Assembly: GCA_030430495.1 (NCBI GenBank) | Contig: JAUIKM010000039.1 | Coordinates: 1-55,199 of the forward strand | Reading direction: 5' to 3' | DNA: 55,199 nt | Source of the DNA: a bacterium | Lineage (GTDB): Bacteria > Bacteroidota > Ignavibacteria > Kapaibacteriales > UBA7675 | Shown: piece by piece, positions 38,694-42,984 of the stretch | How positions within the stretch are numbered: position 1 is the stretch's first letter | Layout of the letters: every line of letters starts with the position of its first letter | Notes under the pieces: model-generated | The model's database searches: none | What the model was told of the DNA's origin: nothing | What the model saw: only the letters and a program-made list of their open reading frames with translations | Program-made: the position numbers and the translations under genes

Positions 38694-38747
38694 TGCTCAT
38701 ACAAGCGGATGAAGCCGTACGCACATGCACATTAAACGTTTTTAAAC

Positions 38748-38783
38748 AACAAAACCCCGCCGGAACACCTGCGGGGTTTTGTT
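38748..38783. terminator. Strong bidirectional terminator between DinB and paralogue 1
   Basis: Perfect 13-bp stem AACAAAACCCCGC / GCGGGGTTTTGTT with a 10-base loop. T-runs appear on both strands, so it can stop DinB (plus) and paralogue 1 (minus). Confidence 0.9.
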
Positions 38784-38819
38784 TTATCTGCCAATTCCGT
38801 TCGGAGTGTTCCGATGGAA

Positions 38820-39389
38820 TTATTGCGAGGCTTTCATCGTCGCCGTGCTGCCGGCCGTGAACGTGATGCGGCTGTCCGTAGCGTCGTTCGTCGTAAACGT
38901 AACGTCTTTGGCCAGTTCGTATTCAACGGCGTCTTCCGACGGCCATGAGCGGATATTGTCAACCGACTTCAGAACCAGCGGATCTTTGGTCGTGTATTTT
39001 TTACCGTTCATTTCAAGGCGAACGAACGATTTCACAACGGCGGAAGCCGGGTAGAAAGGCACACCGTCGGCGCTGTTGCTTCTCAGCGTGATGGTGCTTT
39101 CCTGATCTTCGTCATTGGTGGCCGTACCCTTGTTTTTCTTCTCGCGGTCTTCCACATTCAGTTCTTTGCACTTGATCGTGACGACTTTCTCGGTGTCCGA
39201 GACGTCTTTCGGATCGCTGCCGTCCATGAAGTTAACACCGCCCATGGTCACGGTAACGCCGTCGATAACAACTTCGCACAGCGTCGAGCCTTCGCAGTCG
39301 TAGTCGCAAAGGTTCTGGGCATTAACATTGGCCGTAAAGGCAAAAACGAGGGCAGCAGCGGAAAGACCGCTTAAAACATTGCGTAACAT
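38820..39389 (-). CDS. Secreted protein of unknown function, paralogue 1 of 3
   Basis: 189 residues: signal peptide MLRNVLSGLSAAALVFAF, cleavage near VNA-QNL, then a cysteine cluster CDYDCEGSTLC. The family core shows VxMGGVNFMDGSDP, IKCKEL, GVPFYPASAVVKSFVRLE, KSVDNIRSWPSEDAVEYELA and a closing AGSTATMK. I recognise no known family; the strand pattern suggests a beta-rich secreted domain. It is most similar to the gene at 40053. A long leader with its own promoter (39744-39772) precedes it. AGGA is ~8 bases before the ATG. Function unknown. Confidence 0.85.
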   Translation of the reverse strand: MLRNVLSGLSAAALVFAFTANVNAQNLCDYDCEGSTLCEVVIDGVTVTMGGVNFMDGSDPKDVSDTEKVVTIKCKELNVEDREKKNKGTATNDEDQESTITLRSNSADGVPFYPASAVVKSFVRLEMNGKKYTTKDPLVLKSVDNIRSWPSEDAVEYELAKDVTFTTNDATDSRITFTAGSTATMKASQ

Positions 39390-39737
39390 AGTAAGATTCC
39401 TGTGTAATTGAAGTGGATTAAAAAACCAAATGGTACACTAAATGTATGCTGTGCAAGGATGTGCGCATCATCCCCGCCGCACGCGTGGGCTGAAAAATTT
39501 TCTGTTGTAGTTTCAGGCCGTGTGTGGAATTGTCACTCCAGACTGCGTCTCCGTATTAATACAGCGACTCAAAACACGGTGTTGTTAATTCCCGGCTCCG
39601 GGCAGAGGACGGGATGACTTCTCGCTTCCGGGCGTTCGAATCTCGTTAACAGGCCGGCGGCAGTATTCCTGTTGTTCAGAACGCGTCGGAATGAAGCATG
39701 CGTTAAGTGGCTAAAGAACGGGGCAGTTTCACAAACG
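39390..39737 (-). promoter_or_regulatory. Long untranslated leader of paralogue 1 with conserved hairpin
   Basis: About 348 nt between the predicted start of transcription and the ATG. It carries a hairpin at 39457-39473 (minus-strand stem GGATG/CATCC, loop ATGCGCA) and, 12 bases upstream of it in the transcript, CAGCCCAC preceded by CAGAAAATTT. The same elements occur at matching places in the leader of paralogue 2, as does TTAACGAGATT farther upstream. Probably a regulatory RNA leader; the ligand or partner is unknown. Confidence 0.6.
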
Positions 39738-39743
39738 CGCCGC

Positions 39744-39772
39744 AATATAGCGCACAGGCATGCACGGTGCAA
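39744..39772 (-). promoter_or_regulatory. Promoter of paralogue 1 (TTGCAC-17-TATATT)
   Basis: On the minus strand, TTGCAC (39767-39772), 17 bases, then TATATT (39744-39749) followed by GCG. Confidence 0.75.
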
Positions 39773-39966
39773 GACTTTGTTTAAATTCTTTGCACAATTT
39801 TTCAATCTGAAGTACTTGCCGCTCGGCTGTTGACGCACACCGCGCTCGCGTGTGTGACGCACGGCGGCAGGCCGGCGGCACATTGACTGTTGTACTTCGG
39901 GCTGACGGCCGTTACAGAGCGCCTGGACGGCGCGAGTGATGCAACACACGCCGGACAGGCAGAACA

Positions 39967-40008
39967 AGCGCACCCCGGCGTGTATGCCCGCCGGGGTGCG
40001 CTTTTTTT
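39967..40008. terminator. Terminator downstream of paralogue 2
   Basis: 14-bp stem AGCGCACCCCGGCG / CGCCGGGGTGCGCT, with TTTTTTT on the plus side and TTGTTCT on the minus side. It separates paralogue 2 from the promoter of paralogue 1. Confidence 0.8.
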
Positions 40009-40052
40009 CATGCCTTTTTAAACACAAAGCTGTGCTTTTGCAGGCAGAAGTT

Positions 40053-40619
40053 TTATTGACGGGCTTTCATCGTCGCCGTGCTGCCGGCCTGGAAGGTCAC
40101 TTTGCTCGTGCCGTTCTCGTTGACGAGCGTGACATCTTCGACCAATTCGTATTCGACGGCTTCTTCCGACGGCCAGGAGCGAATTCTGTCGACCGACTTC
40201 AGGACCAGCGGCTCGCGGCTGAAGTATTTACGGCCATTGAGTTCGAGTTTGATGTGCGATTTAACAACGGCGGAAGCCGGGTAGAAAGGTACACCGGAGC
40301 TGCTGTTGCTCGTAATCGTGATATTGGACTCCTGGTTTTCGTCGTTCGTGGCCGTGCCTTTGTTCTGGTTGTTTTTGTCGCGCAGCTTCAACTCTTTGCA
40401 CTTGATTTTAACTTCTTTTTCGTTCGGCGCGGTATCAACCGGGTCCGTGCCGTCCATGAAGTTAACGCCGCCCATGGTCACGGGTACACCGTCGATGATG
40501 ACTTCACACAGAGTCGAGCCTTCACAATCGTAGTCGCACAGCGTTTGAGCGTTGACGCTGTAGGTAAATGCAAGCATCAGCGCCAGAGCGCCGAGGCCGG
40601 AAATAACGTTTCGCAACAT
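40053..40619 (-). CDS. Secreted protein of unknown function, paralogue 2 of 3
   Basis: 188 residues, about two-thirds identical to paralogue 1 by eye. Signal peptide MLRNVISGLGALALMLAF, cleavage near VNA-QTL, then CDYDCEGSTLC, TMGGVNFMDGTDP, GVPFYPASAVVKSHIKLEL, RIRSWPSEEAVEYEL and AGSTATMK. The middle segment KLRDKNNQNKGTATNDENQ is polar and the most variable. It has a promoter at 40982-41010, a ~355-nt leader and a terminator of its own, so each copy is a separate transcription unit rather than part of an operon. Function unknown. Confidence 0.85.
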   Translation of the reverse strand: MLRNVISGLGALALMLAFTYSVNAQTLCDYDCEGSTLCEVIIDGVPVTMGGVNFMDGTDPVDTAPNEKEVKIKCKELKLRDKNNQNKGTATNDENQESNITITSNSSSGVPFYPASAVVKSHIKLELNGRKYFSREPLVLKSVDRIRSWPSEEAVEYELVEDVTLVNENGTSKVTFQAGSTATMKARQ

Positions 40620-40975
40620 AGTAGACTTCCTGTAGGTAGAGTTAACAAATCGAATAATGGCAATAAAAAAACCTGTGGATTCAAAGACGTGCGCATCGCC
40701 TCGGCATCCATTGGTGGGCTGGTAAATTGTCTGAAACGCCGAATATCGGTACTGTCCGGAGCGCTTTACTGGCTAAGGTACGCGCTTGACAAGTGTACAG
40801 GCCTGGTATTTCCGGGACAAGGTATTCGGCGGAAATTATTGTTTTCAATCTCGTTAATTCGACTCCCCTGCTCACTTCGTGGCAAGTACTGATCCCGCGT
40901 GGCAGCGTCGGGACAGCCGGCTGAACACACGTGGAATAAACACATGTATTACAGGAGAGACGTTGGCAGTTAACG
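40620..40975 (-). promoter_or_regulatory. Long untranslated leader of paralogue 2 with conserved hairpin
   Basis: About 356 nt. A hairpin at 40685-40701 (minus-strand stem AGGCG/CGTCT, the same loop ATGCGCA) lies 66 bases upstream of the ATG, against 68 in paralogue 1. CAGCCCAC follows the same spacing, with CAGACAATTT before it. Stem differences from leader 1 keep the pairing. Confidence 0.6.
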
Positions 40976-40981
40976 CGGCGC

Positions 40982-41010
40982 AATATATAGCATCACCTCA
41001 ACGTGTGCAA
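40982..41010 (-). promoter_or_regulatory. Promoter of paralogue 2 (TTGCAC-17-TATATT)
   Basis: TTGCAC (41005-41010) and TATATT (40982-40987) with a 17-base spacer on the minus strand. Confidence 0.75.
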
Positions 41011-41146
41011 GTGCTTTCTGAGAATTCGCAGTAATTTTCATATTCAAAGTAATTCCGACGCGCGCCGTACAAAGCGGCCGGAATCTTCGATGGCGTACCA
41101 CTCGCCGAACGCACCCCGACTGAATCCCGAGGCCGCACGGTGCTAC

Positions 41147-41187
41147 AAAGCAGCCGCGGCGCAATTGGCGCGCCGCGGCTGCTCTTT
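41147..41187 (-). terminator. Probable terminator of paralogue 3
   Basis: 12-bp stem GCAGCCGCGGCG / CGCCGCGGCTGC (41150-41182), followed by TTTGT on the minus strand. A second inverted repeat, GGTATTGCCCC / GGGGCAATACC (41228-41250), lies between it and the stop codon. Confidence 0.6.
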
Positions 41188-41259
41188 ATACACACAGATT
41201 CGCCGAACGGTCCATCCGGATTTCAGCGGTATTGCCCCCGGGGCAATACCCCGGAAACA

Positions 41260-41847
41260 TCAATCGGATTTTTTCATCGTCACCGTACTGCCGGCCTGAA
41301 TCGTCAGTTCGCTGGACTCGCCCTGGAACGTCACGTCTTCAGCTACTTCGTACTCAACAAAATCCTCACTCGGCCAGGACTGAACATCTCCCATCGAATT
41401 CAGCACGATCGGATCAGCGCTCGTATAGGCTTTTCCGTTCAATTCAATATCCACATAGGAGTATACCGTGGCCGATGCCGGGTAAAACGGCACACCGCCG
41501 GCTTGACGACTCTGCAGTGCCACGCGCGAGTCCGCGCCCGCGGTATTCGTGGCATTGCCCTGATATGTGTTGTTCGAATTGCTGAAGTTGAGGTCCTTAC
41601 AAGCGATCGGTACTTCTTTGTTTTCGTTGTCGATATCCTCGATCGGGTCGCCTTCCATAAGGTTAACACCCGCCACGACAACAGGCATGCCGTCGACGAT
41701 AAGTGTGCAGAGAGCGCTGCCCGAGCAATTAATGTCGCAAGGAGGAGGCGGAGGAGGAGGCGTACCTGCAGTAACAGTTGAGTTGTTGGCGCTGAACGCA
41801 AAGATACATGCGGCAAGGCCCAAAGCGGAAATAACAATGCGTAACAT
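41260..41847 (-). CDS. Secreted protein of unknown function, paralogue 3 of 3 (divergent)
   Basis: 195 residues, the most divergent of the trio. The signal peptide (MLRIVISALGLAACIFAF) is followed by a proline run (GTPPPPPPP) that replaces the short linker of the other two, then CDINCSGSALC, VAGVNLMEGDP, IACKDL, GVPFYPASATVYSYVDIEL, WPSEDFVEYEVAEDVTF and AGSTVTMK. The conserved cysteines and the FYPASA and WPSE motifs show common origin. It has its own promoter (42286-42314) and a ~430-nt leader. Function unknown. Confidence 0.85.
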   Translation of the reverse strand: MLRIVISALGLAACIFAFSANNSTVTAGTPPPPPPPCDINCSGSALCTLIVDGMPVVVAGVNLMEGDPIEDIDNENKEVPIACKDLNFSNSNNTYQGNATNTAGADSRVALQSRQAGGVPFYPASATVYSYVDIELNGKAYTSADPIVLNSMGDVQSWPSEDFVEYEVAEDVTFQGESSELTIQAGSTVTMKKSD

Positions 41848-42279
41848 AGTTTACATTCCTGTAAATGTGGTTTATACAAAAGAATAAATATGAATGTATA
41901 TCAGACGGGACGCGGCACAGAGCCCGTCACCGTCGTTGTGAGCAGACGGTTTCGGTCGGCATGCGGCGGCATGTCGGATCGTTTGTTTCAGGCATCAAAC
42001 AAAGCAGCGGGAAGCCGGTAAAACAGCGGCTTCATATTGGGCATTGAGCAGTTCGGCAAACTCAATACAGTCAACAGTCAGGTCGGCATGCTTTTTTCCC
42101 GCCGCGGTTAAAGAGCGAGGCGGACTGAAGGCGCTTCCGGTTAAACACACTACAACGCAGAGGAAATGGCAGCGTCGGCCGAGAGAACGCTGTTTAGCGG
42201 GAATGCACGTGAGAGTAACGACAGTGGAGTTCGCTTTCGAGGGCCGGTAACGACAGTGGAACACCTTCTTTTAACGAAC
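41848..42279 (-). promoter_or_regulatory. Long untranslated leader of paralogue 3
   Basis: About 430 nt. It shares the final CAGGAATGTAAACTATG context with the other leaders. A hairpin GACGGG/CCCGTC (41904-41928) sits ~57 bases before the ATG but lacks the ATGCGCA loop. A 13-base unit CCACTGTCGTTAC (minus strand) is repeated at 42215-42227 and 42247-42259, 32 bp apart. Confidence 0.5.
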
Positions 42280-42285
42280 GGCGAA

Positions 42286-42314
42286 AATATAGCGCGACAA
42301 TTTAGTCGAAGCAA
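42286..42314 (-). promoter_or_regulatory. Promoter of paralogue 3 (TTGCTT-17-TATATT)
   Basis: TTGCTT (42309-42314), 17 bases, TATATT (42286-42291) on the minus strand. Confidence 0.7.
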
Positions 42315-42399
42315 ATATATTATTTAAACACTGTTTTAAAGGCGGCAAACGCAGTACAAAATCAGAATGTCGCAGTGACCGGTCCACTTGCACCGCCGC

Positions 42400-42984
42400 T
42401 CAGGACTCTGCATCGCGGCCGCTGTCCGTCGGCCGGCCGGCAGGCGGATCAAAGTATGCAGAGCCGTGCAGCTTCTCGCAGTCCGCTTTGTCCGTCCAGT
42501 ATATCAGCCTGGTTTTCCCCGGGCGCTTGAAGCCGCTGCGCACGTTGCGGTGAATTCTGGCGGCGACGGTGCGCGAGGCGAGGTTGTCGGGAGCGACGAT
42601 GGAAATGACGCGCTCCTGCCGCAATTGTTCAAAGGCGTGGTTGCGGCAGGCTGCGGCCGCTTCGCTTGCATAGCCCCGGCGTCTGTGTTGAGCCGCGACG
42701 TGATATCCGATTTCGAGCCGACGGCCCTCGTCGATGTCTTGCCACACCAGGCCGCAGTCGCCGATCAGCTCATCGTTGGACTTCAGGCACAGAGCCCAGA
42801 GGCTGACGCCGTCGCGTTTGTACACGTCGCGCCAGCGGATGACCCAGCCGGCCACCATGCGCGGGTCCGTCATACGTGGATAAAACCGCCGGGCCAGCTC
42901 GTCGTTGAACACCGTTTGCATGGTGTCGACGTCGTCGTGCTCAAACGGCCGCATGTACAACCGCTCCGTCTCAGGTATGTGCAT
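42400..42984 (-). CDS. GNAT acetyltransferase, RimJ/RimL type
   Basis: About 194 residues. Start set at MHIPETERLYMRPF (42984), the usual place relative to the TERLxxRPF motif; ATG 42999 is an alternative and neither has a strong ribosome site. Seen: ELIGDCGLVW, RRLEIGYHVAAQHRRRGYAS with the acetyl-CoA loop QHRRRGYA, and VAPDNLASRTVAARI. The family acetylates protein N-termini, small amines or antibiotics. The C-terminal ~20 residues are polar and unlike the family. Substrate unknown. Confidence 0.88.
   Translation of the reverse strand: MHIPETERLYMRPFEHDDVDTMQTVFNDELARRFYPRMTDPRMVAGWVIRWRDVYKRDGVSLWALCLKSNDELIGDCGLVWQDIDEGRRLEIGYHVAAQHRRRGYASEAAAACRNHAFEQLRQERVISIVAPDNLASRTVAARIHRNVRSGFKRPGKTRLIYWTDKADCEKLHGSAYFDPPAGRPTDSGRDAES

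Follow-up and report, generated by a model that had tools for sequence, protein, structure and literature searches.

Genes 1 and 2, two tandem paralogues of an uncultured bacterium, carry upstream of their start codons a small hairpin with the same seven-base loop. We lean towards reading it as an ordinary leader hairpin with a passive role, which both copies inherited. The firmest new result of the analysis concerns its surroundings: a promoter pattern that recurs far upstream of genes of this family, together with the long leaders it implies. The window, i.e. the whole stretch of DNA analyzed, comprises 55,199 nucleotides; genes 1–3, their leaders and their predicted promoters all lie on its minus strand.

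Genes and predicted far-upstream promoters

The three genes form a tandem array with start codons at positions 39389, 40619 and 41847. Gene 1 (38820–39389) encodes a β-rich protein of 189 amino acids with an N-terminal signal-like segment. Gene 2 (40053–40619) encodes a 188-residue paralogue with 71% identity to gene 1, and gene 3 (41260–41847) one of 195 residues (about 50% identity to gene 1). The products are predicted to be secreted, β-rich proteins of approximately 190 residues. The only fold match in the PDB below an E-value of 0.001 was DynF (E = 1.1e-4, TM-score 0.60, 17% identity; pLDDT of the model 74.8).

A profile built from five close proteins retrieved 18 family genes, 13 in the genome of the window (G000) and five in a genome of a sister genus (G002). 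Among genomes of the class 2 out of 294 were matched (that of the window itself and, with a weak match, a second one), and among those of the order 2 out of 123, G000 and G002. A search of a genome-contig collection yielded one locus, from a Candidatus Kapaibacterium MAG, which appears to be the same sequence as contig C67 of G002; this MAG is the nearest named relative. Viral contigs gave no match to the protein profile. The family is diverse, secreted and often organized in tandem arrays, at 38820–41847 as well as on contigs C28, C31, C63, C71 and C13 of G000. Elsewhere in the window a very long open reading frame extends from 32622 to about 37600 (minus strand). By eye, we read its translation as containing RCC1-like repeats, a region resembling a metalloprotease and, at the C-terminus, a sorting-like tail.

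Genes 1–3 are each followed by a G+C-rich inverted repeat (38745–38785, 39966–40003 and 41145–41190), possibly a terminator on both strands. Since these terminator-like repeats stand between the genes, each gene is probably its own transcription unit. Predicted promoters of the form TTGCAC-N17-TATATT are found for gene 1 at 39744–39772 (354 nt before the ATG) and for gene 2 at 40982–41010 (362 nt before the ATG). The predicted promoter of gene 3, TTGCTT-N17-TATATT, is located at 42286–42314, 438 nt before the ATG, and is followed by a leader without the hairpin.

The exact pattern TTGC-N19-TATATT occurs 354–478 nt upstream of 6 out of 18 family genes in two genera. These include both close homologues in G002 (contig C67; 402 and 410 nt before the ATG) and a distant family member on contig C13 of G000 (478 nt). 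In the 5.6-Mb genome G000 the pattern has 22 sites compared with 3 for the reversed control, and in G002 39 sites compared with 5. A literature search on promoters and transcription starts in Kapabacteria found no paper on this group. Because the exact promoter pattern sits this far upstream, the hairpins most likely lie inside long 5' leaders of about 350 nt. We infer that transcription starts at the far promoters, which would place the hairpin in the RNA, about 65 nt ahead of either start codon. The long leaders of the six family genes appear to have a common architecture and little common sequence.

The hairpin in leaders 1 and 2

The hairpin of leader 1, GGATG-ATGCGCA-CATCC, occupies positions 39473–39457, with a predicted fold reaching from about 39482 to 39446, and is separated by 67 nt from the start codon of gene 1. 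In leader 2 the corresponding hairpin, AGGCG-ATGCGCA-CGTCT, is found at 40701–40685 (predicted fold about 40715–40671), 65 nt from the start codon of gene 2; its third pair is a G·U. Both are preceded on the 5' side by a conserved stretch, CAGAAAATTT-TT-CAGCCCAC at 39485–39504 in leader 1 and CAGACAATTT-AC-CAGCCCAC at 40714–40733 in leader 2. The CAGCCCAC box ends 11 nt (leader 1) and 12 nt (leader 2) upstream of the stems, and CAGAxAATTT precedes it in both leaders. The hairpin, its loop and these upstream motifs had been described in a first-pass annotation and are borne out by the sequence of both leaders; the distances given there (68 and 66 nt to the start codon, 12–13 nt to the box) agree with ours within counting convention.

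The loop does not differ between the two leaders, and the nine nucleotides GATGCGCAC are likewise invariant. Among the five stem pairs, two carry a double change (G-C to A-U and U-A to C-G), one goes from A-U to G·U and the remaining two are the same in both leaders. Loop and flanks are invariant, whereas three out of five stem pairs are altered yet still pair. All five changes in the stem arms are transitions. Below the 5-bp stem one more pair is common to both leaders (a G·U in each), followed by a mismatch in leader 2. The earlier statement that pairing is kept is therefore correct for the two double changes and for the 5-bp stems as such, but it passed over the G·U pair in leader 2.

When the predicted leaders are folded at full length, the pairs of the stem reach probabilities of 0.96–0.99 in both, and the minimum-energy fold lengthens the hairpin below the 5-bp stem. 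The stem-loop should thus probably form in both mRNAs, as far as the folding model goes. About half of the shuffled leaders (60 per leader) hold at least one equally confident hairpin. The folding z-scores are -0.6 to -1.3 for 60-nt windows over the hairpins and -0.3 and -1.7 for the two whole leaders. As PMC8250186 states, a fold obtained from one sequence does not count as evidence that the structure is functional.

All five close leaders contain a 60-nt window with a minimum free energy of -15 to -21 kcal/mol that starts no more than about 140 nt from the ATG, and a last window that folds weakly (-2.7 to -6.2 kcal/mol), whatever the sequence. Separate hairpins, more unusual and unrelated in sequence, are present in leader 3 (windows with z-scores of -4.1 and -4.4) and in the homologue gB (z = -2.2). 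The strongly folding 60-nt windows near the start codon are located at 41934–41875 on the minus strand (z = -4.1) and, for gB, at 2731–2790 of locus L012 (z = -2.2).

Descent, covariation and spread among homologues

The loop sequence itself is unremarkable in the window, with 17 occurrences of ATGCGCA compared with 18.6 expected. Leaders 1 and 2 agree at 47% of their aligned positions, with the hairpin block as the best-conserved part (37 out of 60 columns identical in the best window). The local alignment of the leader core scores 23.9, compared with a maximum of 19.6 in 2,000 shuffles; since it exceeds all of them, we regard the block as truly homologous. Four-fold sites with the same amino acid in genes 1 and 2 are 58% identical (38 out of 66), whereas 33% would be expected at random, so the duplication is old and not saturated. 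This speaks against the possibility, raised in the first-pass annotation, that the similarity reflects only a recent duplication.

The identity of the block, 75% (42 out of 56 aligned positions), exceeds that of the four-fold sites with a Fisher P of 0.056 and a binomial P of 0.005, for a block that was chosen after looking. On the strength of this comparison, common descent would explain most of the likeness within the block, and homology by itself makes shared hairpins likely. The high conservation of the block within otherwise 47%-identical leaders and its core alignment score nevertheless count against a purely passive hairpin. So do the three changed pairs that still pair between fixed flanks and loop, which would fit selection.

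All covariation tests were carried out with two related leader sequences. Over the whole alignment of leaders 1 and 2 the hairpin is the sole shared helix of at least 5 bp. Column permutation of the whole leader produced such a helix with at least two double changes in 9.2% of 1,500 trials (P about 0.09), and permutation within the chosen 75-column block did so in 0.8% of 20,000 (P = 0.008). With randomly placed transitions the pairing of the helix survives in 6% (leader 1 to leader 2) or 25% (leader 2 to leader 1) of cases, and with unrestricted changes in 0.4–1.3%. The shuffle control of the covariation test gave 119 out of 500, again for only two sequences. Covariation depends on the depth and quality of the alignment, as stated in PMC11234323.

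Taken together, the hairpin and its changes seem to go only weakly beyond chance and are suggestive at most. Selection on stem pairing is unproven, given two related sequences, the leader-wide P of about 0.09 and ordinary folding z-scores. The annotation had read the compensating changes as an RNA structure under selection. From this claim the location in RNA is retained, with predicted promoters upstream and a predicted stem; selection is not established.

We compared the upstream regions of all 18 family genes in G000 and G002. ATGCGCA is present in two of them, which are the two seeds, and the element is missing from leader 3, from both close homologues in G002 and from 13 more distant family members. 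Two covariance models were seeded with leaders 1 and 2, one of 86 columns (R1) and one of the hairpin alone (R2). R1 recovered the seeds alone from G000 and had no match in G001 or G002; R2 found the seeds alone across the three genomes. When R2 was run with filters off on 97 kb of sequence from the window and the family loci, its best match after the seeds had an E-value of 0.28. The covariance search proposed in the annotation thus retrieved nothing beyond its seeds. A weak match of R1 in locus L015 (E = 1.8) was rejected because it covers the flank and not the hairpin. A third genomic combination of CAGCCCAC and ATGCGCA, on contig C52, was discarded as chance, as it lies within a long open reading frame and its spacing differs. 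Because leader 3 and both close homologues in G002 have no such stem, a situation that the annotation itself had named as contrary to its reading, the hairpin does not belong to the family as a whole. It is possible that it is private to the two paralogues.

The motif CAGCCCA was observed in 7 out of 18 family upstream regions, compared with 0.76 expected, and, leaving out the seeds, in 5 out of 16 (0.67 expected); the reverse strand has no copy. It is located at -103, -102, -97 and -146 in G000, at -380 and -389 upstream of the close homologues in G002, and at -573 in another family upstream region. CAGCCCA is possibly a genuine, if weak, motif, but one not tied to the hairpin.

Possible roles of the hairpin

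Based on these results we favor the following reading. Paralogues 1 and 2 would each be transcribed from their own promoter about 355–360 nt upstream, giving a long 5' leader. About 56 nt of this leader (from CAGAxAATTT to CACAG) would have been inherited from the duplicated ancestor and can still be aligned. The inherited stretch holds the stem-loop, which is predicted to form in both mRNAs, ahead of a ribosome-binding region that is AT-rich and open. There it possibly affects mRNA stability or access, and it would do so without a dedicated ligand.

The main rival, which we consider possible but hold with some doubt, is an RNA element with a dedicated function that only the two paralogues possess. 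An RNA-binding protein or a small RNA would recognize the loop AUGCGCA, presented by the stem downstream of CAGCCCAC, and the two genes would be co-regulated. The two double changes with pairing kept, the invariant GATGCGCAC and the low P within the block are in line with this, as are the position of the hairpin within the predicted transcript and the recurrence of CAGCCCA upstream of other family genes. The leader-wide permutation result, however, points the other way, as do the missing element in the 16 other family regions and the covariance searches that returned the seeds alone. CAGCCCA, moreover, is found near -380 to -390 rather than near -100 in the close G002 homologues.

It is improbable that the conserved unit is a DNA site, in which a transcription factor binds the inverted repeat and the CAGCCCAC box, or in which these mark a second, gene-proximal promoter, with the RNA hairpin as a by-product. 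That short boxes (CAGCCCAC, GATGCGCAC) are conserved more than the pairing would fit such a site, but the block lies about 250–290 nt downstream of the predicted promoter. The best proximal promoter candidates match at 8 out of 10 positions (leader 1) and 7 out of 10 (leader 2), in different places. As to a coding explanation for the leaders, the overlapping open reading frames in leaders 1 and 2 show no correspondence by eye.

A transcription attenuator, with the hairpin and the seven T of leader 2 as a conditional terminator, is very unlikely and was rejected: leader 2 does have GG-TTTTTTT where the predicted lower stem ends, but a terminator scan found no minus-strand site in 38700–42500, and the six-T run of leader 1 lies about 20 nt past the extended stem, so that a T run is adjacent in leader 2 only. 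A riboswitch, as suggested in the annotation, is equally unsupported and was dismissed, since none of 4,227 Rfam families reached its gathering score in the window. The leaders resemble the riboswitches and cis-regulatory leaders of Rfam in the position of the structure within the 5' leader near the start codon; they differ in having a single small hairpin without a conserved ligand-binding core or an evident switch partner.

Hairpins with self-complementary loops that engage in kissing interactions are a known type, and six of the seven bases of the AUGCGCA loop form a palindrome, UGCGCA, with a duplex energy of about -8.3 kcal/mol. Among random loops of 7 nt, 3% contain a palindrome of 6 nt. 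A lineage-specific kissing loop, through which leaders 1 and 2 would pair with themselves or each other and tie the fates of the mRNAs, with loop and CAGCCCAC kept and the stems drifting in a compensated way, is the least probable of the readings considered.

Structured leaders before genes of secreted proteins are a known kind. Long structured 5' leaders are found in mRNAs that encode abundant envelope or secreted proteins, such as E. coli ompA and S-layer genes of the slpA type. Leaders 1 and 2 share with these a predicted long leader, a stable hairpin, an open ribosome-binding region and a gene for a secreted protein. The stabilizing hairpin of ompA is located at the extreme 5' end, whereas the hairpin described here lies about 250 nt inside the predicted leader. 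That leaders 1 and 2 are one more instance of this kind is unproven. The case mainly illustrates that two related sequences can hint at covariation without establishing any. Should the pairing truly be under selection, the hairpin would add a new leader RNA to a bacterial lineage in which RNA biology has so far been little studied.
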